DNA of 64,000 bases. Source: Arthrobacter wenxiniae. Lineage in GTDB: Bacteria; Actinomycetota; Actinomycetes; Actinomycetales; Micrococcaceae. Shown in pieces: positions 8,042-20,941 of the stretch. A model generated the notes under the pieces. It was not told where the DNA came from. It did not search any database and worked only from the letters and a program-made list of their open reading frames with translations. A program made the position numbers and the translations under genes. How positions within the stretch are numbered: the first letter of the stretch is position 1; the number at the start of each line of letters is the position of its first letter. Location of the stretch: positions 1 to 64,000 of the forward strand of contig NZ_JAAMFM010000008.1 of NCBI RefSeq assembly GCF_013376105.1, written 5' to 3'.

Positions 8042-9325
8042 TCAACCGCCGCGTTTCCAGCCCGTGTCCAGCCGCCGGGCCAGACCCAGCAGTTCCAACC
8101 GGCCCAGCCCCGCCAGCACCGACGCGGTCCCGAGGCCGGCCACGACGCTGAGCTTGTCCACAGAGGTGGCCGAATGAAGTGGAAGCGCGTCCAGGAGCAG
8201 GAGGTCCTCCACCCCGAGCCCGTCGTGCAGGGCCGGTGCCCCACGTTGTTCGGGTACCAGGTTGGAGCCTGCCTCGCCCGCGAGCTCGGCAATGTCCGCG
8301 GCGTCAGTGACGCACACTGCCGCCCCTTCGCGAAGCAGCCGGTGGCAGCCGGCCGAATTTGCCGAATACACCGAGCCCGGCACCGCGCCCACGGAACGGC
8401 TGAGGCCCGCTGCGTGGTGTGCCGTGTTCAGCGCGCCGGAGCGCCACCGCGCCTCCACCACCACCGTCACCTCGCACAGTGCGGCGATGAGCCTGTTCCG
8501 TTGCAGGAAGCGGTAGCGGGTCGGGTTGGTGCCCGGCGGAACCTCGGCGACGATGGCACCCTGCTCGGTGACGGTGCGCAGCAGTTCCTCATTTCCGGAC
8601 GGGTAGAACCTGTCCACGCCGCCGGCCATGACCGCCAGAGTGGGCGGCTGCGCCACGCCCCCGGCACCGGAGCCGGCCCCGGTACGGCCCTGTGGCACCG
8701 AACCCCAGTAGGAGGGGTCCTGCCTGGCCGCCGCAAGCGCGCCCCGGTGGGCACTTGCGTCGATGCCGTATGCGCCGCCGCTGACCACCGTGTAGCCGCG
8801 CTGTACAAGCGCTGCTGCCATCTCCCCCGTGGCATTGGCGCCGTAGCTGGTGCTGTCCCGCGAGCCGACCAGGGCAATGCAGCGCCGTTGTTCCGGCAGG
8901 TGAAGCACGCGTCCGCGCATCCACAGGGCAATCGGCTCCGCCAGTTGCAGGTCCGCCAGGGCGGGCGGCCACGCCGGGTCCTCCGGAATCAGCAGCCCCC
9001 CGCCGTACCGCTCCACCACGGCCAGGTCGCGTTCCGGAGCCAGATCCGCAAGCCGCGGCCTCCACCGCCCCAGCGCATCCGCCAGGCCCGGCCACCGGCC
9101 AGCTCCGGTCTCCGCCAGCACGGCCGTCATTTCCTGTTCCAGCACGGCGCTTGACTCCGCTCCGCTGCGGATGAGGGCCAGCGCATCCACCGGGCCGGCC
9201 ACCGAAATGAGTGCCAGTCCGGCCAGGTCGGACGGTTCCATGAGCCGGGTCAGCGCCGCCCGGGCGAGCCGGACGTCGGCATTGCCCCGATTCAGGGTGC
9301 CCGGGTCCACAGTGGTGGCGTTCAT
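8042..9325 (-). CDS. dprA: DNA-processing protein DprA
   Basis: 427 residues. DprA binds incoming single-stranded DNA in natural transformation and loads RecA. The Rossmann-fold core is evident: VGSRDSTSYG, VSGGAYGIDASAHRGAL and MAGGVDRFYP, followed by a C-terminal winged-helix region. Its ATG overlaps the comM stop (ATGA), so it is translationally coupled to the interrupted comM. With the element in place the operon promoter upstream of yraN/comM is more than 9 kb away, so dprA expression may depend on transcription starting within or near the left end of the element. Confidence 0.92.
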   Translation of the reverse strand: MNATTVDPGTLNRGNADVRLARAALTRLMEPSDLAGLALISVAGPVDALALIRSGAESSAVLEQEMTAVLAETGAGRWPGLADALGRWRPRLADLAPERDLAVVERYGGGLLIPEDPAWPPALADLQLAEPIALWMRGRVLHLPEQRRCIALVGSRDSTSYGANATGEMAAALVQRGYTVVSGGAYGIDASAHRGALAAARQDPSYWGSVPQGRTGAGSGAGGVAQPPTLAVMAGGVDRFYPSGNEELLRTVTEQGAIVAEVPPGTNPTRYRFLQRNRLIAALCEVTVVVEARWRSGALNTAHHAAGLSRSVGAVPGSVYSANSAGCHRLLREGAAVCVTDAADIAELAGEAGSNLVPEQRGAPALHDGLGVEDLLLLDALPLHSATSVDKLSVVAGLGTASVLAGLGRLELLGLARRLDTGWKRGG

Positions 9326-10653
9326 AGTCCTTCTCCTCGTTGTCGCAATGTCAGGGCCAGGCCCACGTCGTCGGCGCAGGGCCGGGGCCGCCCCTGCAGA
9401 TCGGCCACCGTCCAGGCCAGGCGCAGCACGCGGTCGTAGCCGCGGGCGGACAGGCTGCCCTGGCCCATGGCACGGTCCAGCAGCGCCGTGTCCGCCGACG
9501 GCAGGCGGAGCGGGCCGCGCAGGATCCTGCCGGTGAGGTCGGCGTTGTGAACCAGTCCGAAGGGGCGCAGGCGCTCCCGGGCGGTATCCCGCGCCAGTTT
9601 CACGCGGACAGCCACCTGGTCGGTGCTCTCCCGCGGGCCGGCATCGGAGAGCTGGGCAAGTTGTACACGGTTGACCTGCAACTGGATGTCCACCCGGTCC
9701 AGCAGCGGGCCGGACAGGCGTCCGAAATAGCGCCTCCGCGCCATGGGCGTGCATTCGCAGCTGATCCCCTTGCCCGCGGCCTTGCCGCAGGGGCAGGGGT
9801 TCGCGGCCAGCACCAGCTGAAAGCGCGCAGGGTAGGCCGCCGTTCCCGCCGAACGGTGCAGTACCAGTTCGCCGCTCTCGAGGGGCTGGCGCAGGGCATC
9901 CAGGACCCGCTTGTCGAATTCCGGTGCCTCGTCGAGGAAGAGCACGCCCCGGTGGGCGCGGGAAGCGGCCCCGGGCCGCGGGATGCCGGTGCCGCCGCCA
10001 ATGATGGACGCGGTGCTGGCCGAGTGGTGCGGGCGCTCGTAGGGCGGGCGGCGGATCAGCGCGTTGGAGCCGCGGCGCACCTGGTCCAGGGAATGGATGG
10101 CCGTGACTTCCAGGGCCTCCTCGTCGCTGAGTGCGGGCAGCAGTCCGGGCAGGCGCTCGGCGAGCATGGTCTTGCCCGAACCCGGCGGCCCCACCATCAT
10201 CAGGTGGTGCCCGCCGGCGGCCGCGATTTCCAAGGCCAGGCGAGCCTCCGCCTGACCGGCCACCTCGGAGAGGTCCGGCGGGGCCTGCTCCCCGGCGGAC
10301 GCGCCGTCGTCGTCGGACCCGGCGGCAGCGGGCGGGCCGTCCGGCACGGCAAGCACCAGGTCCTGGGGGTCGGCGTCGAAGTCGGCGACCACTTGCGCGA
10401 GCGAGCCGTAGCCGCGCACCTTCGCACCAGCCACCAGCTCCGCCTCGGCGAGGTTGGGCTCCGCCACGACGAATTCCTTCCAGCCCGCCTTGATGGCTGC
10501 CAGGACGGCGGGCAGCACGCCGCGGACCGCCCGCAGCCGACCGTCCAGGCCCAGCTCGGCTATGAAGACCGTCCCCCCGGTCCGGCGCACGTCCCCGGCC
10601 GCCTCCAGCGCCGCCATGACGATGGCCAGGTCGAAGAACAAGCTTTGACACAC
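9322..10653 (-). pseudogene. comM: comM (YifB), 3' part, separated from its 5' end by the integrated element
   Basis: 434 host-derived residues (9322-10636) carry the AAA+ part of ComM: Walker A GPPGSGKTM, Walker B VLFLDEAPEF, a four-Cys segment NPCPCGKAAGKGISCEC and LLDRVDIQ. ComM is a hexameric helicase that drives branch migration of transforming DNA. The frame extends past the 9-bp attachment core into the element and meets a GTG at 10653, giving the leader MCQSLF, so a truncated protein lacking the first 80 residues could be made. Whether it is stable or active is unknown. Excision would rejoin it to the 5' part. Confidence 0.92.
10628..10636 (+). repeat. Left attachment core (AGGTCGAAG)
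   Basis: Nine bases identical to 19783-19791. On the minus strand they encode the FDL of ComM, just after the KKGSG segment. The bases differ immediately outside the core. An exchange within the core by the serine integrase explains the junction. Confidence 0.85.
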
Positions 10654-10669
10654 TTACCTAGGAGTCATC

Positions 10670-10927
10670 ATGGGCACCACGCGCACCACACCACCGGCCG
10701 GTTGGGAACTGCAGGCCGTCCCGGCGGACGTCGACCCCGCCGGCTGGGCCGACGTCTACGAATCCCGCCACCAGACCAAGGACGGGTCCACGTTCGTCTA
10801 CGGCTCCTGGTGTGACGGCATCCTGGAAATCGTGGTCGAGCAGGACGGGAGCGAGATTTCCCTGCCGTCCGGGTGGGCGGCCCGGCAGCTGGCCGAACTG
10901 CTCTATGACCTGGCGAGCCGGTCATGA
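10670..10927 (+). CDS. Small unknown protein coupled to the element's tyrosine recombinase
   Basis: 85 residues, acidic, with no family I recognise. It contains WADVYESRHQTKDG and ends in a predicted helix (WAARQLAELLYDLASRS). AGGAG lies 5 bp before the ATG, and its stop overlaps the ATG of the recombinase, so the two are co-translated. Such small partners often help a recombinase choose direction or site, but nothing in the sequence proves this. It is transcribed away from comM; a TTGACA at 10645-10650 may be part of a promoter, though no good -10 follows at the right distance. Confidence 0.65.
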   Translation: MGTTRTTPPAGWELQAVPADVDPAGWADVYESRHQTKDGSTFVYGSWCDGILEIVVEQDGSEISLPSGWAARQLAELLYDLASRS

Positions 10928-11808
10928 GCGCGGCGCCCAGGGCCCCGCTCCGGCACCCGCCCATGCCGGCGGCCACCGAAGCCCATGCCGGGGAGCTCGC
11001 GGCCGTGCTGGCCGGGTGGCGGCTCTGGCAGGAGTCCGTCAGCGCGTCGGAACGGACCATAGCGGACCGGGCCCGCACCATCAAAAACCTTGTCGGTTTC
11101 GCCGGGTGTGGGCCGCTGGAAATCACGCCCGCGCACATTATCGGTTTCATGACCAGGCCGGGACTCACGCCCGGCACGCGCCTGACCTACCATGGCGCAA
11201 TCAGCGCGTACTCCGCGTACCTGGTGGCGGCGGGGTTGCGTGAGGATGACCCCGTGGGCCGGGTGCCGAAGCCGCGCCGCCGCGCCGGCCTCCCACGCCC
11301 CATCAGCGAGGCACAGCTGCAGGCCGTGCTGGCGGCGGCGAACCGGCGCACCACCCGCATGATGATCCTCCTCGCCGCCTTTGAGGGGCTGCGCGTGCAC
11401 GAGATCGCCAAGATCAGGGGTGATGACTTCGACCTCGACGCGGGGCTGCTGTACGTGGTCGGCAAGGGTGCGAAGGAGGCCACCCTGCCGGTGCACCCGC
11501 TCGTTCTGGCCGGGGCCGCCGGCTTCCCGGCGGACGGCTGGTGGTTCCCGTCCCCCAGGAACGACGGACCCATCCACCGCACCGCGGTAGGCAAGACGAT
11601 CCACGACACCCTGGCCCGTGCCGGCGTGCACGCCACCCCGCACCAGCTGCGCCACTACTACGGCACGGCGCTGCTCCGCAACGGTGCCAACCTCCGCGTG
11701 GTCCAGGAGCTCATGCGGCATTCGTCCGTGGCCACCACTGCCCTGTACACCGAGGTTTCGGACGTGCAGCGGCGGGACGCCATCGCCGGGCTGTTCGCGG
11801 GGGTCTGA
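10924..11808 (+). CDS. Tyrosine recombinase of the element
   Basis: 294 residues. The catalytic set is complete: Arg in EGLRVHEI, Lys in GKGAKEATL, HQLRH, RHSSVAT and Tyr in ALYTEV. An N-terminal SAM-like domain (SERTIADRARTIKNL) precedes it. It is a short XerC/D-like enzyme without an arm-binding domain. The element already has a serine integrase whose location at the comM junction explains integration, so this second recombinase may resolve multimers, act at another site such as dif, or be a relic of another element. It runs opposite to most element genes and is followed by a hairpin. Confidence 0.88.
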   Translation: MSAAPRAPLRHPPMPAATEAHAGELAAVLAGWRLWQESVSASERTIADRARTIKNLVGFAGCGPLEITPAHIIGFMTRPGLTPGTRLTYHGAISAYSAYLVAAGLREDDPVGRVPKPRRRAGLPRPISEAQLQAVLAAANRRTTRMMILLAAFEGLRVHEIAKIRGDDFDLDAGLLYVVGKGAKEATLPVHPLVLAGAAGFPADGWWFPSPRNDGPIHRTAVGKTIHDTLARAGVHATPHQLRHYYGTALLRNGANLRVVQELMRHSSVATTALYTEVSDVQRRDAIAGLFAGV

Positions 11809-11814
11809 CGTGAA

Positions 11815-11846
11815 GGAGCCCCGCACCAGCACTGGTGCGGGGCTTC
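11815..11846 (+). terminator. Terminator after the tyrosine recombinase
   Basis: A 13-bp perfect inverted repeat (11817-11829 and 11832-11844) begins 8 bp after the recombinase stop codon. No long T run follows. It lies between convergent transcription units and may serve both. Confidence 0.65.
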
Positions 11847-11948
11847 CTGTGTGGCGCTGGCCGGGTCACCGGCCCCTGAAAAAGAGCCTCGCCGGCCATC
11901 GTTCCCCTTGCCCGTGAACAGCTCATAAAGAGTGGGCTGGGGTGGCGT

Positions 11949-12170
11949 TCACGCCACAGTCTCGGGGTCCATCCTGGGCCGCCCCGCAGCCTCCCACGCG
12001 GCGGCCCAGGCGGCCGGGCTGTTGAACCAGTCCGGGATGCGTTCACCAGGGCAGAAAACAACCTCCGTGGCCGTGGCCGGGTGCACGTGGTGCGCGTAGT
12101 CGGTGAAAACTTCCGGCACGCCCTGCCCGTCGAGCGGCGCCAGTGTCAGCGGCTCCTGGTTGTGCAACAT
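11949..12170 (-). CDS. Small unknown element protein
   Basis: 73 residues of unknown function, the last gene of the rightmost-to-leftmost operon. It has a Pro- and Trp-rich C-terminal half (ERIPDWFNSPAAWAAAWEAAG). AGGAAAA lies about 7 bp before the ATG. It shares a pattern with the gene before it: both have a segment of the form VxFxPGExxPxW, so the two may be related small proteins. Its position after the capsid gene suggests a virion or packaging role, but that is only context. Confidence 0.6.
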   Translation of the reverse strand: MLHNQEPLTLAPLDGQGVPEVFTDYAHHVHPATATEVVFCPGERIPDWFNSPAAWAAAWEAAGRPRMDPETVA

Positions 12171-12179
12171 GCTGTTTTC

Positions 12180-12437
12180 CTATCTGTAAGGCAAAGCCCA
12201 CGCCGGCAGGGTCTCGCCGGGAACAAACGTGACCAGCTGGCCCGTGACCGGGGACAGGAGCGTCATGATGTGGGTGCAGTTCGTGGGCGGGACCGGGACC
12301 GGCGGCGCCCCATCCGGTTCCCGCCTATCACTGGCCCACTCATACAACGGGGAGTTGAGCGTGATTTCTGGGACGGTGGGACGCCAGGACGGATTCTTGA
12401 CCCACCCCGGCGTTCCCTGCCCCGCACCAAGAACCAT
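12180..12437 (-). CDS. Small unknown protein coupled to the capsid gene
   Basis: 85 residues. The ATG overlaps the capsid stop codon (TAATG), so its translation depends on the capsid gene. The C-terminal segment VTFVPGETLPAWALP resembles VVFCPGERIPDWF of the next gene. The sequence is Pro-rich with no membrane segment. In phages the gene after the major capsid protein is often a head decoration or connector protein, but this one is too short and divergent to assign. Confidence 0.6.
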   Translation of the reverse strand: MVLGAGQGTPGWVKNPSWRPTVPEITLNSPLYEWASDRREPDGAPPVPVPPTNCTHIMTLLSPVTGQLVTFVPGETLPAWALPYR

Positions 12438-13867
12438 TACAGCCCGTTCAGGTACCGGTATACGCCGAACGCGGACGGCCGGGCCGGCTGAATGTCTCCG
12501 CGCCAGGTGATCACAAACGCGGTCTGTCCGAGGTCGGCGTAACGCTCCGTCAACACCTGCACGGTCATCTCGAGGCGCTGCCCGATCAGGAGCTCTTCCC
12601 AGTTGCCGATGAACGCGTCAGCCGCGGTGCTGCTGGTGCCCTTCGTCATGCCCTTAGCCACCTGGTTGGAGACGTACACCGGCAGGTCGTTCAAGTCGTC
12701 CGGCTTCCGCAACGGCTGGCCCAACGTGTCCACGAGGCCGGCGTACTTTTGCATGAGCCGGGACGGGACAATCAGCCCTGTGGGCGTTTCGTTCAGGTTC
12801 TCCAGCGTGTAGTCCAGGGCCAGCCATTCCGCGTAGTTCGTGGGCGTGGTGCCGTTGGTTGCGGAGCCGCCTAACACGTTGGCGGGCAGTACCGCGTTCA
12901 GCGCGGCCAGGACGCCGCGCGGGTTGGGCGGAACAGGGAAGTTCGCGCCTGACGGGTCACCGGTCAGGATGCCGCCATACAGGGCCAAGCGGTCCAGCGC
13001 CAGGCCCATTGACCTTCCCATTGCGTTCTTGACCAGGTCTTCCGCGTTTTCCGCGTCCTGCAGCCACTCGTTGGTGACGACGACCATGCAATTCATCGTC
13101 TTGGCAACCAGGGTGACCATGTCGAAGCTTGGATCGCTGGCCGTGATCGCGGAACCCTCAGTGCGGAATGCCGAGGTGGGGTCCGCCGTCAGCCTTCCGA
13201 TATTGACTGTTTGCGTGCCCATCGGGACCAGGCTGGCGCCGGCCTTGAACACGGCCGCGTTGTTCCGGGCCAGGTCGATAAGCTCCGAAGACCAGGACAC
13301 CGGCACGACAGCCGAGGCGCCCGAGGTGGTCAGGGACCGCAGCAGGTTTGTGATGCCGCCGTGCATCGCCGTGGTGGCCTGCTCACGGGCAGCGTCAGCA
13401 GCCCTGGCCCGCTGCACCGCCGGATGATCCGCGAACCGCTGCCCGGCCACCACGGCCGCCGGATCCTGCGAACCGCGGACGGTGAACTTCTGGCCCGCCG
13501 AACGGGCACCGGCACCGGCACGGCCCACAGGCTGCACCGCCTCCGCGTCCCGGCCGCGTTCCAGCGGGGCGCCGTGACTGTCATACAAGGGGCCGGCCCC
13601 CGCACGGGCCACGGCATCATCCTGCGCCTGCTCCCGCTCAAGCTCCGCAATGCGGGCATCGAACGCCTTGATTTCCTCGTCAAGGCTGGCCCGCGACTTC
13701 CACAAACTGTCGTAGGAACGCGCCTGCTCCGGCGTAAACGAGACACGCCCGGAACTTTCCTCCCGAATGGCCCGCAGCTTGTCAAAATCCGCCTGGGTGT
13801 CGTTGAACTCACGAACCTTTACGGCCCGGTTTTCCTGAACCCGCCTAATAAGTTCTGCAATGGTCAT
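12437..13867 (-). CDS. HK97-type major capsid protein
   Basis: 476 residues. The first 70 are charged and helical (KSRASLDEEIKAFDARIAEL), like the delta or scaffold domain of HK97 capsid proteins. The fold domain follows from about residue 150, with PVSWSSELIDLARNNAAVF and the typical end WEELLIGQRLEMTVQVL then a Phe-rich strand and RGDIQPARPSAFGVYRYL. GGAGG lies 8 bp before the ATG. No protease or portal gene is next to it, unlike in normal head modules. A capsid gene in a small element suggests it builds or redirects heads, as capsid-forming satellites do; that part is inference. The 240 bp upstream hold no convincing gene. Confidence 0.9.
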   Translation of the reverse strand: MTIAELIRRVQENRAVKVREFNDTQADFDKLRAIREESSGRVSFTPEQARSYDSLWKSRASLDEEIKAFDARIAELEREQAQDDAVARAGAGPLYDSHGAPLERGRDAEAVQPVGRAGAGARSAGQKFTVRGSQDPAAVVAGQRFADHPAVQRARAADAAREQATTAMHGGITNLLRSLTTSGASAVVPVSWSSELIDLARNNAAVFKAGASLVPMGTQTVNIGRLTADPTSAFRTEGSAITASDPSFDMVTLVAKTMNCMVVVTNEWLQDAENAEDLVKNAMGRSMGLALDRLALYGGILTGDPSGANFPVPPNPRGVLAALNAVLPANVLGGSATNGTTPTNYAEWLALDYTLENLNETPTGLIVPSRLMQKYAGLVDTLGQPLRKPDDLNDLPVYVSNQVAKGMTKGTSSTAADAFIGNWEELLIGQRLEMTVQVLTERYADLGQTAFVITWRGDIQPARPSAFGVYRYLNGL

Positions 13868-14109
13868 GATTTCGCCCTCCTGGGCTTGGGCCTGTGGCCC
13901 GAAAAAGTAATGGGATCATGCGCCACAAGGGCGTCTTGTCGTCTCGCGTTGCCTGGCAGGCCGTGGCGGTCAGGAAATCTGCGTCAACTGGCGGCCCACC
14001 ATTTCGCCGGGCCAGGTTGCCGGGCTGGCCGTGGCGGGCCGGGCAAACTGGAACCGATGGTAAAACCGTTGCCCGCATTCTACGCCCGAATCACAGCCGT
14101 GTCATTCAC

Positions 14110-14523
14110 TCACAAGTCCCCAGCCCACGCCGCCCACTCCGCCGTGTCCTCCGGACCCCGCGGCGCCCCCGCCACGAGCCGGTCAATGACGTTGGCCAGG
14201 CGGCTTTGCATCGTCGAAACGATATTGTGTTCGCCGGTGGCCACGGCCCGGTCAATGAGCCGCGCATCATACAGGGCAAGCTCCCGCCACACGGGGCCCC
14301 AGAACCCGCCCGCGCCGGGCGGCAGCTTCCCCAACTCGGCCATGACGGACAACTCGATGGGGCCGGGACCGGCCGGCACATCCGCAGGCGGCGCGGGCGG
14401 GCCAGCCCTGCGCCGCCGCGCTGCCGCCGCGTGGGCCGCCCGGCACCCGGCGCAGCGGCAGCCCTTCCGGTAAGCGTTGTCACTGGCCGCGCCCGGCGCG
14501 TGTGTTCGGTTTTGTTCAGTCAC
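14110..14523 (-). CDS. Possible small terminase subunit
   Basis: 137 residues. It starts with a Cys-rich motif (RKGCRCAGCRAAH) seen in many small actinophage proteins, then has a Pro-rich linker and a helical domain (ELALYDARLIDRAVATGEHNIVSTMQSRLANVIDRLV). The helical part and the position one gene before the capsid protein are compatible with a small terminase that recognises packaging sites. I cannot exclude another DNA-binding role. The GTG start has AGGAG 8 bp upstream. There is no large terminase in the element, so packaging would need a helper. Confidence 0.5.
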   Translation of the reverse strand: MTEQNRTHAPGAASDNAYRKGCRCAGCRAAHAAAARRRRAGPPAPPADVPAGPGPIELSVMAELGKLPPGAGGFWGPVWRELALYDARLIDRAVATGEHNIVSTMQSRLANVIDRLVAGAPRGPEDTAEWAAWAGDL

Positions 14524-14742
14524 GGCGTTGTCTCCTGCCCATGGTGCCCCACCGGCCGTTCGTCGGGGGGAGAAAAAAATGGAAATGGCGCGGTCGCCCG
14601 CATATCGCCCGGTAGAAAAAAACCTGCCCTGTGCGGCCCTGTGTGCCCCGCTGAGCGCCCCGCACCCCCCGGGTGGCTCCCGGTACCGGCAAGGGCGTTC
14701 CGTTTGATTTGGGACGTCATGGCGTGTCTGTCGTCGTGTCCT

Positions 14743-14858
14743 GCTGTCGTGTCGTCACGCTGTCGTGTCGTCACGTCGTCACGACAGCGGCGTGTGTGGT
14801 GGTGCTGTGCCTGTGTGCCACGCACACACAGGCAGGGCGTGGTGCTGTGCCTGTGTGG
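14743..14858. repeat. Iteron-like and inverted repeats in a 360-bp non-coding stretch
   Basis: The gap 14524-14886 holds no gene. It contains a 16-bp unit, GCTGTCGTGTCGTCAC, at 14743-14758 and 14759-14774 with a partial third copy to 14782. The arms GCTGTCGTG (14759-14767) and CACGACAGC (14780-14788) form a 9-bp dyad. GTGGTGCTGTGCCTGTGTG occurs twice further on (14801-14860 area). Such arrays serve as replication origins, packaging sites or regulator targets; which one applies here is not visible. Confidence 0.6.
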
Positions 14859-14886
14859 GTGGCGTGGCGTGTGCATGGCATGGCGC

Positions 14887-15207
14887 CTAGTCCTTGCCGT
14901 CGTCGCTGGGTGGTGTGGTGGTGTCGTTGACGGCGGACTCGAAGTTCAGGGCGCCGCGCCCGATGGCTGCGCGTGCGCCCTCCTGTGTGCCGTGCAGGTC
15001 CAGGAGCAGGTCTCCCAGGTTCATCACGAGGCAGCGGCAGAGTTCGGCGGCGTAGGACAGGCGCAGGTGTTCGGGCTGGGCCATGACCAACGCACGGACG
15101 TTCAGCTTGGGGTCTGCGTTGGTGTTGACCTGGGCGGTGGCGAGGGCGAACACGTCACGGCTGACGTTGAGCATGAATTGTTCCTGGGTGGCTGGGGTGG
15201 CGTTCAT
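14887..15207 (-). CDS. Unknown element protein
   Basis: 106 residues without a recognised family. It is mostly helical, with ALVMAQPEHLRLSYAAELCRCLVMNL in the middle and an acidic end. AGGAG lies 7 bp before the ATG at 15207, and that ATG overlaps the stop codon of the preceding gene (15204). It is the last of three small coupled genes downstream of the repeat-rich region at 15.8 kb. Confidence 0.6.
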   Translation of the reverse strand: MNATPATQEQFMLNVSRDVFALATAQVNTNADPKLNVRALVMAQPEHLRLSYAAELCRCLVMNLGDLLLDLHGTQEGARAAIGRGALNFESAVNDTTTPPSDDGKD

Positions 15208-15416
15208 TCGGTGTCTCCTGGCGGGTTGCGGTTTGTTGTTTCGATTTGGTCTGCGAGGTCGTGCAGCCGGTCGGCCATGGTGCGGGCCTGTGCCGGTGTC
15301 AGGTGGGCTTGCAGGATGTTGTTGGTGAACAGGCCGATGCCTGGCAGTTCGGTTCCGTCCGGGTAGCGCCACGCCCAGCAGCGGGCGCGTGCACGGGGGC
15401 GTGGGCTGTTGCTCAT
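15204..15416 (-). CDS. Unknown small element protein
   Basis: 70 residues. The C-terminal half (LTPAQARTMADRLHDLADQIE) is a helical segment common among small actinophage proteins of unknown function. It overlaps the next gene by 4 bp (ATGA) and starts 2 bp after the stop of the gene before it, so the three genes 15763-14887 form one translated block. Confidence 0.6.
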   Translation of the reverse strand: MSNSPRPRARARCWAWRYPDGTELPGIGLFTNNILQAHLTPAQARTMADRLHDLADQIETTNRNPPGDTE

Positions 15417-15418
15417 GG

Positions 15419-15763
15419 CTAGTTCTCTGCTATCCAGTCGAGCGGTGCGCGGTATCCCTTGGCGGCGGCCTTGGCGGCGCGGCGGGCCTGGTTGGCGTCG
15501 GCGGTGTCCACACCGGGGCTGCGGTAAAGATGGGTGATACTGGCCAGCGCGGCCTTGGCGGTGGCACAGTCCGGCGGGAATCCGATGAAGACGGCCCAGC
15601 GTTCGGCGTCGGCCCGGACGAGGGCGGCGTGGCCGGGGCTGTCGTCATCCCATATTGAGGCCCAGTCGGTGACGAGGCAGGGCGTCCCGTCTGGCAGGTG
15701 GCCCGTGATGAATCCGGCGTCGGTTGGGTTGTTCTGCGTGCCAGTGCTGGGGCTGGTTGTCAT
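15419..15763 (-). CDS. Unknown element protein
   Basis: 114 residues, no known family recognised. It has a Trp/Asp-rich middle (TDWASIWDDDSPGHAAL) and an Ala-rich helix near the end (NQARRAAKAAAKGY). AAGGA lies about 9 bp before the ATG. It is the first gene after the inverted-repeat region 15791-15890 and is tightly packed with the next two genes. Confidence 0.6.
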   Translation of the reverse strand: MTTSPSTGTQNNPTDAGFITGHLPDGTPCLVTDWASIWDDDSPGHAALVRADAERWAVFIGFPPDCATAKAALASITHLYRSPGVDTADANQARRAAKAAAKGYRAPLDWIAEN

Positions 15764-15790
15764 GATGCTTTTTCCTTGTCTGTTTCGCTG

Positions 15791-15890
15791 GGTGTGTCAG
15801 TGTGTCTCGGGTGTGTCTCGGGTGTGTCTTAACACGGTGTCTGTGTGTGTGTCTCCCCCACTTTCTTAAGGGGAGACACACTGACACACC
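15791..15890. repeat. Nested inverted repeats between the ATPase gene and the small-gene block
   Basis: An 18-bp perfect inverted repeat has arms at 15791-15808 and 15873-15890. Inside it lie a second 12-bp inverted repeat (15847-15858 and 15870-15881) and an 11-bp unit, TGTGTCTCGGG, repeated at 15801 and 15812 with a degenerate third copy. On the minus-strand transcript these fold into a large hairpin just after the ATPase gene. It could be a terminator, an attenuator or an origin-like site. Confidence 0.65.
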
Positions 15891-15903
15891 TGAAAACGGC
15901 TAT

Positions 15904-17388
15904 TTATGGGTACTTTTTCAGGTGGTGGTGTGTCTGCGAATTATTGGTTCCGTTTTGGATTCTGATGTAGCCCTCGGCCGCCAGTAATGCGATGGCTGCA
16001 ATCTTCCGTGGCCGGCCTCCGCGCACGTTGTCCAGGATGGTTCGGAGCGACGGAGGTTTGGGTGCCTGTTCGATGAGTTCGGCCACCTTGGTCAGGGTTT
16101 CCTCGTCCCGGTCGTCGGGCGGCATCGGTTCGCCTTGCGGCTCGAGCGTGTAGTCAATGTGCCCGGGCGTGGTGGAGTCGATGACGGCCACGGCTATTTC
16201 CTGGGTCCTGTTGGTTTTGCTCCACGCGCCGGCCTTGGGTCGCACCTGGCCGGGGCGGTCCTTGCCGACGCGCAGGCCGAGCCGGCCCACCAGGCCCACG
16301 CCCAGGGGTGCAATGACTTCGACCATGTAGGAGGCGCCGGACAGGTAGGACATTTTGGCTTGGGCGCCGATGGCGTACCGGCCGCGGCCGTCCGCTGATT
16401 TGGTGACGTGGTCGACGACGACGACGGCGGCGCCGGTCCTCCTGGCAATGACGCGGGGCACGGCCCGGCCCCATTTGGTGACTTCGTCGTTGTCAATGGA
16501 TTTGACGCCGAACACGGCGAACGCCTCGGTCACGCCGTCGATGACAACCAGGGCGTAGCGGTTGTTGAGCAGGCTCTCCCAGGCGCCGAGTTCTTTTGTC
16601 ATGCCGAAGGGGTGGCATTCGGGGCTGATGTAGTGGAGGTGGGCGGCGATGTTTTCCGGTTTGGCGCCCAGCTGTTTCTGCAGGTTCACCGCGGTTGTTT
16701 GTGTGTCTTCAAAGTCGATGATGAGGACGTCTTGGCCGGCGTTGAGGAGCCGGGCGGTTTCGGCGTGCATGAGCATGGATTTCCCGGATTCGGACTCTCC
16801 TTGCAGGGAGTGGACCTTGCCGGGGTAGAGCAGGAACACGCCGTCTGTGCGGGGCATGATGGTGGGCAGCAGCGGCTTGTATGTGCCGTTGATGGCGGCC
16901 GTCAGGTCTTGGGGCGCCCATGAGGCCGGCTCTTCTCCCGCGTCTGGCACGGGTTCCCCACCCGCTGTGCCCGGGGCCGGCGCGGGTGCTGTGCCGGTGG
17001 CGGGCCAGCCGTTCATCCATTCGTTCACGTCGGCCAGTGGTTTTATGACCCTTGGCTGGACTGCACCGGCCGGCAGCGCACTGCTGAGGGTCTGTTTGAT
17101 CTCCGCGTCCTCCAGGCCGGCAAGGCGTGCGGCGGCGGTAAGCTCCTGCACCACCAGGTTGCCGGGTAGTTCCCCGCCGGCCACCAGCTGGGCGAGGTTG
17201 AAACCGGCCCGGTTTAGTGTGTGGTTGCGGGTGCCTTCGGGTGCGTTTTGAACTGCCGCGCATTCCTCGGCCAACGCCTTGGCGGCGCCGGGGTTGATTG
17301 TGCCGGCGTAGGCCGCCGGCGGGGTGTAGGCCGTGGGTGCTGTTTTTGGGTGGTTCATCGCTTCCCGCAGGACGCGTGTGTCGACCAT
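15904..17388 (-). CDS. RecA/DnaB-like AAA ATPase, probable replication protein
   Basis: 494 residues. The N-terminal 150 residues have a helical segment like those after primase domains (LNRAGFNLAQLVAGGELP). Residues about 190-400 form a RecA-like ATPase with Walker A GESESGKSM, Walker B VLIIDFED, VVIDGVTEAF and VVVVDHVTKS. A winged-helix-like end (LRTILDNVRGGRPRKIAAIALLAAEGYI) may bind DNA. RepA/DnaB-like ATPases of this type serve replication in phage satellites and plasmids. ATG 17388 overlaps the previous stop codon (TGATG). It is the largest gene of the early operon xis-52aa-99aa-ATPase. Confidence 0.82.
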   Translation of the reverse strand: MVDTRVLREAMNHPKTAPTAYTPPAAYAGTINPGAAKALAEECAAVQNAPEGTRNHTLNRAGFNLAQLVAGGELPGNLVVQELTAAARLAGLEDAEIKQTLSSALPAGAVQPRVIKPLADVNEWMNGWPATGTAPAPAPGTAGGEPVPDAGEEPASWAPQDLTAAINGTYKPLLPTIMPRTDGVFLLYPGKVHSLQGESESGKSMLMHAETARLLNAGQDVLIIDFEDTQTTAVNLQKQLGAKPENIAAHLHYISPECHPFGMTKELGAWESLLNNRYALVVIDGVTEAFAVFGVKSIDNDEVTKWGRAVPRVIARRTGAAVVVVDHVTKSADGRGRYAIGAQAKMSYLSGASYMVEVIAPLGVGLVGRLGLRVGKDRPGQVRPKAGAWSKTNRTQEIAVAVIDSTTPGHIDYTLEPQGEPMPPDDRDEETLTKVAELIEQAPKPPSLRTILDNVRGGRPRKIAAIALLAAEGYIRIQNGTNNSQTHHHLKKYP

Positions 17389-17687
17389 CAGAGGTCCCCG
17401 CCCGTCTCTTCGCGCAGCCGGGCCAGGTTGGGCAGGACGTGTTTGAACGCGTTGGCCAGGGCGCAGGCTTGCTCGTAGTCGAGAAAGAGCACGTCCTCGC
17501 GTGCGTAGGTGCCGAAGCCTCGCACGGCAACGCCGCAGGCGCCTTCGGCCCATATGGCGTGGATGATGAGTCCGTGCGTGTGGATTTGCGGGCCGGTGTA
17601 TGCGTCGGCCCCGAGCCGTGCGGACAGTGCCGGGGACAGTTCAAAGTCCGTGTCTGCGGTCATTCGGGGCATGCGTGTTTCGCTCAT
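17388..17687 (-). CDS. Unknown element protein upstream of the ATPase
   Basis: 99 residues. The C-terminal part (FLDYEQACALANAFKHVLPNLARLREETG) is helical and resembles small proteins common in actinophage early regions; no function is known to me. Its ATG overlaps the stop of the 52-residue gene and its stop overlaps the ATPase start, so it is coupled on both sides. Confidence 0.65.
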   Translation of the reverse strand: MSETRMPRMTADTDFELSPALSARLGADAYTGPQIHTHGLIIHAIWAEGACGVAVRGFGTYAREDVLFLDYEQACALANAFKHVLPNLARLREETGGDL

Positions 17688-17842
17688 GATTCACCGCCGA
17701 GCAGGACGGCCAGGGTGTCGAGCTGGGCCGCGGTGAGGGGCGGCATGCTGGCGACAATTCGCGCGGCCCGTGCCAAAATGGGATCATCAGCAGATCGCGG
17801 CGCCGCCTGGGCAGGGCGGCGTTTGCTGTCTCCGGGGTTCAT
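17684..17842 (-). CDS. Very small element protein between xis and the 99-residue gene
   Basis: 52 residues, starting MNPGDSKRRPAQ and ending LDTLAVLLGGES. The ATG overlaps the stop of the excisionase-like gene and the TGA overlaps the next ATG, which supports real translation of this short frame. The C-terminal helix (MPPLTAAQLDTLAVLL) is a common motif in actinobacterial element proteins. Confidence 0.6.
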   Translation of the reverse strand: MNPGDSKRRPAQAAPRSADDPILARAARIVASMPPLTAAQLDTLAVLLGGES

Positions 17843-18036
17843 CGTGCGCCGGCTTCGCGGTTGGACGTGTCCGCGTGGATCATTTCGTCAAGTTCATTGA
17901 GGTCGAAGCGGACCAGGCGCGGGCTGATGCGGTAGCGGGTGATTAGGCCGAGTTTGGCCCACCGCCAAATTGTGCCTTCGCTAACCTGCTTGTATGTTGC
18001 AGCGTCTGGGGCGCTTGCGAGCCGCCGTGTGGACAT
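17839..18036 (-). CDS. Excisionase-like helix-turn-helix protein
   Basis: 65 residues with a MerR/AlpA-type helix-turn-helix: YKQVSEGTIWRWAKLGLITRYRI followed by RFDLNELDEMI. Proteins of this size and type bind att sites as excisionases or act as early regulators. ATG 18036 is chosen since GGAGG lies 8 bp upstream; the GTG at 18045 overlaps that ribosome binding site. It is the first gene of the leftward early operon, with the promoter/operator region upstream. Confidence 0.75.
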   Translation of the reverse strand: MSTRRLASAPDAATYKQVSEGTIWRWAKLGLITRYRISPRLVRFDLNELDEMIHADTSNREAGAR

Positions 18037-18233
18037 TTTGGACACCTCCGAAGAATCGTTCTCTTCGGTGTGGCACCGTAAGCGCTAACCCCCACGAAGC
18101 GGTCAGTTACGGCTTCACCTTTGTTGCCTCTGCATCTGCGTAATAGGTGCCGTTCTCGTGGAATACAAACGGCTTTTGGTGGTGAACCAATACCTCAATC
18201 ATAAACCCTTATCGGCGGCTATGTGAGTAAAGA

Positions 18234-18249
18234 TGACAAGTTTTGTCAA
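18234..18249 (-). promoter_or_regulatory. Early promoter -35 box inside a palindromic operator
   Basis: On the minus strand TTGACA (18244-18249) is a perfect -35 hexamer. It overlaps the dyad TGACAA-AAC-TTGTCA (18234-18248). A poor -10 match follows at the expected distance. It lies about 200 bp before the excisionase-like gene. The overlap suggests repression by a bound dimer. No separate repressor gene was recognised in the element. Confidence 0.5.
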
Positions 18250-18251
18250 CC

Positions 18252-18348
18252 AATTTACGCGCTGGGGGAGTATTTTATGCGCTGTACGTATTGTTTAGGA
18301 TAATTCACACGCTGGGCGCGTACTTTATGCGCCGTACGCATTGTTTAG
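18252..18348. repeat. Two imperfect 47-bp direct repeats next to the integrase stop codon
   Basis: Copies at 18252-18298 and 18302-18348 share GCTGGG, TTTATGCGC, GTACG and TTGTTTAG at the same spacing. The second covers the stop codon of the integrase. The region 18046-18344 is visibly richer in A and T than its surroundings and holds no gene. The repeats may bind a recombination or replication protein. Confidence 0.65.
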
Positions 18349-19757
18349 CCCTCCCGCAGTTCCACGGTGACGGATTCGGTGTCAAAGTACGGTTCCCCGC
18401 CGCGCCAGCCCTTGGTGCGGCCCTTCGCCTGGGGGTGGATGGTGACTACCGCAAGGGCGGCCAGCACGGCGCGCTGGCGGCCGACGGCGGCGTCCAGAAA
18501 TACCTGCGCCGGGTCGGGCGCGGAGGCGAGCCCCGCCATGGATGCGGCCATGCCCACCGCCCCGAGCCGGGCCTCCACGTCCCGGATTTTCCCGTCAAGG
18601 TTCGCCGTCGCTATGCGCACCTGCGCCCCGGTCAGGTCGCCGTTGGCGTAGTCGACGGCCAGCAGGTCGCGGCGGGTGCGCAGGGCGGCGGCCTCGGCCC
18701 GCAGCGGTGCCACCGTGTCGGGCCGGGCGGTGGTGAAGCGGGCCAGCGTCTCGGGCCTGCGCAGCAGGCCGGCAATGACGCCGCGGACCAGCTTGTCCGT
18801 CTGCGCCTGGTCGCGGGTCACGTGGGCGCCGGACTTGCACCGGTAGACGCGCCGCCCGCCGGTCGCTGCAGCGGCCCGGACGGTGCCACCGCACACCGCG
18901 CACAGGTACAGCCCGGAGCCGAGCCACCGGCCCGTGTTGCCCGTCGTCGTGGTGCGGGCGGGGTCTTTGAGTTTTGCGGTGACGGCGCGCCAGGTTTCCT
19001 CGGGCAGGATGCCGGGCCAGTTCGCCGGCCCGGTAATCTCGCCCCGGTTTTCCATCCAGCCGGCGTTTCGCGGGCGTAGCAGGATGCGGCGGAGCGCTAT
19101 TTCATCCATGGGGTGTGCGCCGGCCGAGGATGTGGTGATGCCGTCCGCGGCCATGTCGCGTGCCACGCTGCGCAGGGACTGGCCCGCAATGAACTTGTCC
19201 GCCGCCCGCACCAGCGCGGCGGCTTCGGCGGCCCGCGGCGTCACCCCGTCCGGTTCATAGCCGAACGGGCGCGGCCCGCCCCGCCACTTGCCCATGTCGG
19301 CGGCCTGGGCCTTGGCCCGGATCATGCGCTCCCGCATGTGCTCTATCTCGTGCTGTGCGAGGACACCGCCCATGCGGGCCACCATGCGCCCCTGTGACGT
19401 GGCAAGGTCCAGCGGCCCGCCCTGCACGGTTTGCACCTCCACGCCCCGCGGCTCAATCACGTCAATGAATCCCTCGAGTTCGGCCGTGCGGCGGTGCAGC
19501 CGGTCGGTGTGCCAGGCAAGAATGGCGTCAATCGTCCCGGCCTCCACGTCGGCCAACAGGGCCTTGTATCCTTTACGGACGCGGCGGCGCTGATAGGCGC
19601 TAATGTCGTTGTCCACGTAGACGGCGGCAACGGTCCAGCCCAGGCGGGCCGCCAGCGTCCTACAGTCCTCTTCCTGGCGTGCCACGCCAAGTCCGGCGCC
19701 CTCGTGGTCGTGGCTGATGCGTACATAGATTCCGGCGGCTCTGCCATTGCTTTTCAT
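18345..19757 (-). CDS. Large serine recombinase (integrase)
   Basis: 470 residues. The resolvase domain has the nucleophile Ser in GIYVRIS and the conserved WHTDRLHR; a recombinase domain (RGGPRPFGYEPDG) and a zinc ribbon (YLCAVCGG then RCKSGAH) follow, with a C-terminal coiled region. Large serine integrases join attP and attB without host factors. It sits at the comM junction. No ribosome binding site precedes its own ATG at 19757. The frame is open upstream, so in the integrated state translation can enter from comM and give a 561-residue ComM-integrase fusion. Confidence 0.92.
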   Translation of the reverse strand: MKSNGRAAGIYVRISHDHEGAGLGVARQEEDCRTLAARLGWTVAAVYVDNDISAYQRRRVRKGYKALLADVEAGTIDAILAWHTDRLHRRTAELEGFIDVIEPRGVEVQTVQGGPLDLATSQGRMVARMGGVLAQHEIEHMRERMIRAKAQAADMGKWRGGPRPFGYEPDGVTPRAAEAAALVRAADKFIAGQSLRSVARDMAADGITTSSAGAHPMDEIALRRILLRPRNAGWMENRGEITGPANWPGILPEETWRAVTAKLKDPARTTTTGNTGRWLGSGLYLCAVCGGTVRAAAATGGRRVYRCKSGAHVTRDQAQTDKLVRGVIAGLLRRPETLARFTTARPDTVAPLRAEAAALRTRRDLLAVDYANGDLTGAQVRIATANLDGKIRDVEARLGAVGMAASMAGLASAPDPAQVFLDAAVGRQRAVLAALAVVTIHPQAKGRTKGWRGGEPYFDTESVTVELREG

Positions 19758-19781
19758 AGTGTGTCTATCATAGACTTTCGA

Positions 19782-20030
19782 AAGGTCGAAGCCGGAGCCT
19801 TTCTTGGGCAGCGAGGCGGGGACCAGGTTGACGGTGATCTTGCGCCGGCTCAGGGGAATGCCCGAGTTCTGGGCGGCCGAACGGATGCGTTCGCGGGCCT
19901 CACTCAGGGCGGCGTCCGGAAGCCCCAGGAGCACAAAGCTGGGCAGCGTCTGCCCGATGTCGGCCTCGACCTCGATGACGTGGCCGTTGAGCCCCACGAG
20001 GGCCACCGCCAGCGCCCTGCCCATCCCCAC
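19782..20030 (-). pseudogene. comM: comM (YifB), 5' part
   Basis: 83 codons from GTG 20030 to the attachment core, holding the start of the Lon-protease-like domain of ComM (GLPDAALSEARERIRSA, KITVNLVPASLPKKGSGFDL). The frame does not end at the junction; it continues into the integrase. The start codon lies directly after the yraN stop. An ATG at 20024 is an alternative. With the 434 residues at 9322-10636 the intact protein would be 517 residues, the normal size for YifB/ComM. Confidence 0.92.
19783..19791 (+). repeat. Right attachment core (AGGTCGAAG)
   Basis: Nine bases identical to 10628-10636. They fall in the comM codons for FDL, 26 bp upstream of the integrase ATG. Joining the host sequence right of this copy with the host sequence left of the other copy gives an uninterrupted comM. 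Confidence 0.85.
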
Positions 20031-20608: not shown

Positions 20609-20941
20609 TCAGCCGAGCGGGCCCAGCTGGCCGTCCTTGGGGATTTGAAGGTCGTCGGTCTTGATCAGTTCCTCGACATTGACGTCCTTGAAGGTGATGA
20701 CGCGGACGTTCTTGACGAAGCGGGCCGTGCGGTAGACGTCCCACACCCACGCGTCCTGCAGGGTCAGGTCGAAGTAGACCTCGCCGTCGGCCGAGCGCGC
20801 CTGCAGGTCAACGTGGTTGGCCAGATAGAAGCGGCGCTCGGTCTCCACCACATAGCTGAAGAGGTTCACCACGTCCCGGTACTCGCGGTAGAGCTGCAGC
20901 TCCATGTCGGTTTCGTAGTTCTCCAGGTCCTCAGCGCTCAT
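20609..20941 (-). CDS. DUF2469 family protein
   Basis: 110 residues of a conserved actinobacterial family. The sequence MSAEDLENYETDMELQLYREYRDVV and the DLTLQDAWVWDVYR segment are characteristic. Its function is unknown to me; it is regularly located next to rnhB and yraN. ATG 20941 gives the usual N-terminus. It is acidic and soluble with no signal peptide. Confidence 0.88.
   Translation of the reverse strand: MSAEDLENYETDMELQLYREYRDVVNLFSYVVETERRFYLANHVDLQARSADGEVYFDLTLQDAWVWDVYRTARFVKNVRVITFKDVNVEELIKTDDLQIPKDGQLGPLG

Follow-up and report, generated by a model that had tools for sequence, protein, structure and literature searches.

The locus analysed here raises the question of why comM, a gene linked to natural transformation, is found in two pieces, what lies between them, and whether the interruption could be of use to the intervening DNA. 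The window, that is the whole stretch of 64,000 nt under study, had been described in a first-pass annotation as containing a 9-bp core on both sides of an integrated element, a reading frame restored upon joining, and a translationally coupled dprA gene downstream. These statements were borne out. Both copies of the 9-mer AGGTCGAAG were located exactly at the positions given (Table 1). When the outer sides are joined at the core, a frame of 517 residues with zero stops is obtained, and the FDL of KKGSGFDLAIV sits at the joint. The gene is broken at codon 83, the joined core corresponding to codons 80-83. The comM stop codon (TGA, 9322-9324) overlaps the dprA start codon (ATG, 9325-9323) in the sequence ATGA, so that the claim of coupling holds. 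The range of 9322-20030 reported before is right for comM plus element, while the element itself occupies 10637-19791, 9,155 bp with a single core copy counted. Membership of the target gene in the ComM/YifB family is indicated by the 3' part alone, which exceeds the cut-off of TIGR00368.

Table 1. Features of the comM locus and the inserted element (positions in the window)
Feature	Position	Strand	Remarks
dprA	8042..9325	-	TIGR00732 192.8 bits, cut-off 191.15 (scanned as 8042-9250); ATG overlaps comM stop
comM 3' part	9322..10636	-	residues ~80-517; AAA+ and C-terminal domains complete; PF01078, PF13335, part of PF13541
comM 3' part, curated family model			TIGR00368 385.7 bits, cut-off 362.4
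core copy, junction at comM 3' side	10628..10636	.	exact 9-mer
outer attP arm GACACACT	10647..10654	.	attP reconstruction
small ORF	10670..10927	+	no match in Pfam, PHROGs, NCBIfam, PADLOC
tyrosine recombinase, phage/plasmid integrase type	10924..11808	+	PF00589
small ORF	11949..12170	-	no match in Pfam, PHROGs, PADLOC
small ORF	12180..12437	-	no match in Pfam, PHROGs, PADLOC
HK97-fold major capsid protein	12437..13867	-	PF05065 90.2 bits; PHROG 10; TIGR01554 116.8 bits
ORF, function uncertain	14110..14523	-	weak PHROG HNH match, phrog_23251, E 0.0024; no Pfam match
hypothetical protein	15419..15763	-	no match in Pfam, PHROGs, PADLOC
AAA ATPase, primase/helicase-like, start codon uncertain	15904..17553	-	PF13481; PHROG 695
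small HTH protein, excisionase-like	17839..18045	-	PHROG 66, E 2e-9
large serine recombinase (LSR), probable integrase	18345..19757	-	PF00239, PF07508 over cut-off; PHROG 95; 561-aa frame open from comM
outer attP arm AGTGTGTC	19758..19765	.	attP reconstruction
core copy, junction at comM 5' side	19783..19791	.	exact 9-mer
comM 5' part	19783..20030	-	residues 1 to ~83; GTG start; PF13541 first half inside 561-aa frame

The 9-mer on its own was rejected as proof of the junction, since AGGTCGAAG recurs within the window, namely at 17900, at 20766 and, on the opposite strand, at 11427, whereas dinucleotide content predicts about 0.32 copies. The strong evidence for the split is instead the comparison with intact comM genes of congeners. 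A search of relatives for such genes, proposed in the first-pass annotation, detected comM in each of 23 genus genomes, the window's own among them, and in 21 of these as a single uninterrupted frame of 514 aa or more, with alignments extending from residue 1 to at least residue 499. The two not intact are the window's own gene, interrupted here, and that of genome G022, interrupted at another place. With the two nearest congeners, G010 and G021, the joined comM matches in 516 codons over 1,548 nt at 90% identity, the alignment thus being gapless. At the level of sequence, these comparisons confirmed a precise junction and a comM gene split by an integrated element. Intact comM lacking the 9-bp core in close relatives had been named beforehand as an observation that would speak against this reading. 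Nearly all congeners are of this kind, carrying at the core position variants such as CTTTGACCT with differences mostly at wobble positions (21 genes). The assignment to a serine integrase is unharmed by these variants, because such an enzyme requires a matching central dinucleotide rather than a 9-mer.

The LSR located beside the 5' junction is very probably the integrase. Its resolvase and recombinase domains are above cut-off (PF00239 102.6 bits, PF07508 36.5 bits); the zinc ribbon scores 18.9 bits against a cut-off of 25.3 (PF13408), and C286, C289, C307 and H312 are unchanged in all three relatives compared. The frame is continuous with the first 83 comM codons, and the gene has its own ATG at 19757. 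The in-frame fusion was considered as a conserved device and rejected, since a stop follows FDLS in the elements of genomes G066 and G098. Two kinds of evidence argue for the LSR as integrase: related LSRs are found at the same place of comM in nine other elements, and the attachment site is symmetric. When attP was rebuilt from the element-side halves, an inverted repeat centred on CT became apparent: of 26 pairs, 16 match in the window, 17 in G066 and 14 in G098. At random places means near 7 were obtained (P 0.0004, 0.0004 and 0.0022). Summed over the three elements the CT centre gave 38 of 60, and centres shifted by 1-6 bases gave 19 or less. When four further elements were scanned without a preset centre, CT shared the top score in G791 alone; GC was the best centre in G428 and G282 and TG in L064, so that in those three CT is no more than a putative crossover point.

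Alternatively, integration could be the work of the tyrosine recombinase, a complete phage-type gene near the other end of the element, with the LSR as a passenger. The tyrosine recombinase is 43-45% identical to integrases of Mycobacterium phages and shares 51% with an integrase encoded by a Paenarthrobacter plasmid. It was rejected as a candidate since the G066 and G098 elements have no counterpart, and in L051 the best match lies beyond the comM 3' part. Together with the LSRs at this site in the nine other elements and with a dyad symmetry that suits an LSR attP, this makes such an assignment highly improbable. The gene appears as an extra recombinase within an element probably integrated by its LSR.

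The nine other elements came from several searches. The nearest relative of the LSR, 61% identical, is encoded by Pseudarthrobacter oxydans CC185 (G098; one locus from 32 stretches in a scan of species genomes), whose comM is 67% identical to that of the window; on the strength of comM the host would belong near Pseudarthrobacter in the Micrococcaceae. Among 97 other relatives the best match, 52-53%, was in G066, which belongs to another family. In both cases comM residues 1 to about 84-86 precede the LSR, and the comM 3' part follows 42.5 kb (P. oxydans CC185) and 9.5 kb (G066) further on. Of 15 proteins of the window element the LSR is the sole one with a detectable homologue inside these two elements. 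Further LSRs at comM residues ~81-86 were found in G791, from a sample of the class (394 genomes), in G282, G428 and G106, from a sample of the family (395 genomes, in which the flanks of the window and of the nine next-best of 59 places were inspected), and in viral contigs L058, L069 and L064 (60 loci). L069 shows the 3' side of comM alone, and in L064 and G282 the LSR is on the 3' instead of the 5' side. Other LSRs adjoin comM near residue 315, at Walker B (G316, G251, G115, G337 and probably G809), or near residue 490 (G842, G973, G238 and a second LSR of G282). In a tree of 59 LSRs, those of the window's site can be explained by one change (98% of 200 bootstrap trees), and the three comM sites need two changes in all, which is the minimum; the residue-315 group by itself requires two, owing to a single row, L163, that is very divergent.

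The cargo of the element points to a phage satellite. Besides the LSR it specifies a capsid protein and an AAA ATPase, the latter matching an AAA protein encoded by L069 at 46% identity (residues 210-498). Among the element ORFs scanned, which took in the overlapping minor ORFs in part, neither PHROGs nor Pfam revealed a large terminase subunit, a portal or a tail gene. PADLOC recognised no defence gene in seven window proteins save one weak AAA match (0.0036). The gene order presumably resembles that of phiRv1. The small HTH protein, below the curated cut-offs (PF12728 24.8 bits with a cut-off of 27, TIGR01764 17.4 bits with 28.8), is a candidate for the directionality factor. LSR, AAA_25 and a capsid family are also combined in G066, G428, G282 and L069, in lengths of 7.9 to 10.1 kb, so that four other elements of the capsid-bearing plan occupy the comM site. 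In the 14.5-kb element of G791, primase and AAA genes were recognised; the four proteins scanned include no capsid protein. Of different character are two islands with the look of defence islands. One, of 42 kb, interrupts comM of P. oxydans CC185 at this codon (G098, C6 ~123470-165940, L054-L056) and carries restriction and SNF2/methylase genes, with Eco57I, SNF2, SIR2, KAP, Mrr and SRA-HNH domains; the other, in G106, has a type I restriction set. An integrase and a major capsid protein in a small island are what candidate mycobacterial PICIs are recognised by in the relevant part of PMC10654092, and since the window element has both, it is read as satellite-like, a satellite life cycle being suggested by this resemblance. 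The candidate actinobacterial PICIs treated there, phiRv1/phiRv2-type elements included, are likewise small, and some have a serine integrase and a helicase. Those shown in that source integrate in tRNA genes or elsewhere, in contrast to comM, and the extra tyrosine recombinase sets the window element apart from them.

Relatives of the capsid protein are almost absent from the collections searched. At 1e-10 it was detected in one of 297 genomes of the order, the window's own; ten phage records gave weak matches, and a scan of viral contigs yielded no relatives. A capsid nearly without relatives might suggest a dead remnant for which excision is no longer possible. This is unlikely, as the reading frames of integrase, capsid protein and AAA ATPase are all uninterrupted, and the scanned element proteins include no recognisable transposase.

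From these data we consider it likely, with a probability of roughly 0.85, that a satellite-like element has been integrated by its LSR at the CT in comM codon 83, is excisable in principle, and is protected by a weakened transformation of its host. The LSR would act at the CT dinucleotide in DNA coding for the conserved GSGFDLA stretch. Integration leaves 83 N-terminal residues, which run on in frame into the recombinase, and a C-terminal piece which keeps the AAA+ module and is devoid of a start; the latter piece may still be expressed. The split locus cannot yield full-length ComM, and the element would thereby disable a competence operon while present, as the first-pass annotation had proposed. 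With the help of its directionality factor, possibly the HTH protein, the LSR could cut the element out again and leave an exactly restored comM. The probable benefit would be that the element is less often lost by recombination with imported DNA when transformation is weaker.

Exact restoration of the frame could also be part of a regulated switch, in which DNA uptake or stress would trigger excision and bring back ComM. Such active lysogeny is represented by the comK prophage of Listeria, whose controlled excision restores comK. An excisionase-like gene is present, and transcription of the host gene could drive the LSR directly downstream of the comM 5' part in the same frame. On the other hand, that fusion is not conserved, and exact restoration is expected from ordinary serine-integrase excision anyway; a switch therefore appears rather improbable, and protection of the element by weakened transformation remains the preferred reading.

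The anatomy of the split is firm, and insertions of this kind are known. In a survey of LSRs, those inserting into a gene annotated as magnesium chelatase/ATP-dependent protease made up 12.4% of the predicted site-specific integrases (Durrant et al. 2022, PMC10083194). This gene is taken to be of the comM/YifB family, and the pairing of LSR and comM is in that sense an already published pattern. The LSRs reported in that paper are alike in the target gene; passages of it concerned with them describe neither cargo nor actinobacterial satellites, and neither pilus nor secretion system occurs as a term in its main text. In Proteobacteria, comM split by mobile elements has been proposed, in parts of PMC4774983 and PMC11472951, to be a defence against removal by transformation, and in Acinetobacter comM is often inactivated (22% of strains). 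The hosts are different there and so are the recombinases, an integrase like CF65_00446 and the Tn7-like AbaR. In agreement with the mechanism distinct from Acinetobacter islands that had been claimed for the window, no Tn7-type transposase was matched among the scanned element proteins. The Listeria comK prophage, named in PMC4774983, likewise interrupts a competence gene by a phage-type element. Phage WO sr1WO resides in a magnesium chelatase gene of Wolbachia, according to the relevant part of PMC9203015; it has in common a serine recombinase and a gene family that is the same by name, and differs in being a full prophage in an alphaproteobacterial endosymbiont. Among the literature matches listed, no paper was recognised as describing an actinobacterial satellite inserted in comM, and in the sources consulted no test of ComM in actinobacterial transformation was found.

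One more full LSR is encoded by the window's genome, on contig C17. It belongs to an island of ~58 kb (G000 C17:12095-70591; L175, L178-L180, L002) which splits a tadA-type pilus ATPase gene. The LSR follows directly after the TadA-type ATPase, which is cut behind HANSA, and the missing end is found ~58 kb away in a 126-aa ORF of the same direction (33%, E 1e-6, no Pfam match), followed downstream by two T2SSF genes, a TadE and a Tad gene (tadB/tadC/tadE-like). In the two nearest relatives the corresponding tadA-type gene is longer (profile 5-268 vs 5-252). An attP at a GA dinucleotide, picked to fit the frame, has 16 of 24 pairs (random-place P 0.0002). Of the host's genes for transformation, comEC, a comEA-like gene and dprA were found. 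In Micrococcus luteus, transformation is abolished when comEC is lost, and equally when any one tad ORF other than tadB is missing, as stated in part of PMC4322843.

The same two targets recurred among 57 LSR loci (55 distinct), a biased set fetched as best matches to the comM-site LSR with flanks of ~1.5 kb: within 113 bases, eight have comM and 18 a tad gene (17 tadA, one tadC), and 31 (29 distinct) lack all nine of the transformation proteins looked for. In a tree of 61 LSRs the starred branches force at least six label changes for comM and eight for tad, so that kinship fails to explain all cases. It is conceivable, with chances little short of even, that actinobacterial LSR islands, from satellites to islands of 58 kb, have converged on comM and tadA as a means against curing, some cells including this one being hit twice. 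The other possibility is a neutral landing site, conserved motif-coding DNA in a dispensable comM gene, with no selection against transformation involved. The insertion points do coincide with conserved stretches, namely FDLA (residue 83), the Walker B motif DEAP (~315) and the C-terminal end (~490), and several elements carry defence or restriction cargo, which requires no competence effect. Over 40 bases, conservation of the attB region somewhat exceeds that of the whole gene (0.859 vs 0.804); its rank of 260 among 1,514 windows is unremarkable, and DNA conservation was judged weak as a reason for site choice. In addition, a second transformation-linked family, tad, has been struck repeatedly by several LSR lineages, and competence genes are enriched among LSR targets in the relevant part of PMC10083194. 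A neutral site is accordingly regarded as possible and somewhat doubtful.

The element gains in interest from the double hit and from the recurrence of tad as a target. One genome harbours two islands in transformation-linked genes, and integrase, attP and attB come naturally mapped for a site within comM of Micrococcaceae-like hosts; the transformation model Micrococcus luteus belongs to the Micrococcaceae. The idea that elements disable transformation to avoid removal thus becomes directly testable in Actinobacteria.

Interruption of comM is not confined to the site of the window. In G022, the gene is split near residues 302-317 by ~18 kb (L053, C11:647500-667400); the insert contains ISL3/DDE transposases and a TIR-TM defence-like protein, and an integrase was absent from the ten ORFs scanned. 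For the family, the survey comprised the best 150 comM matches over 395 genomes, and short frames among the rest could escape it. Two comM matches were present in 24 genomes among the matches listed; 22 of these and three others were re-searched, G155 and G171 being left out as the listed best match is full length in both. In 12 of the 25 comM is in two pieces, on different contigs in five, some of which may be explained by contig breaks, and far apart on one contig in seven. Double insertions were also observed. In G282 (L168, C16:221500-241400), comM residues 81-490 are located between two different LSRs. In G428 (L165, C44), comM was struck twice, by an 8.5-kb element at codon 84 and by a break near residue 232 (Walker A), the remaining part of the gene lying ~192 kb away.
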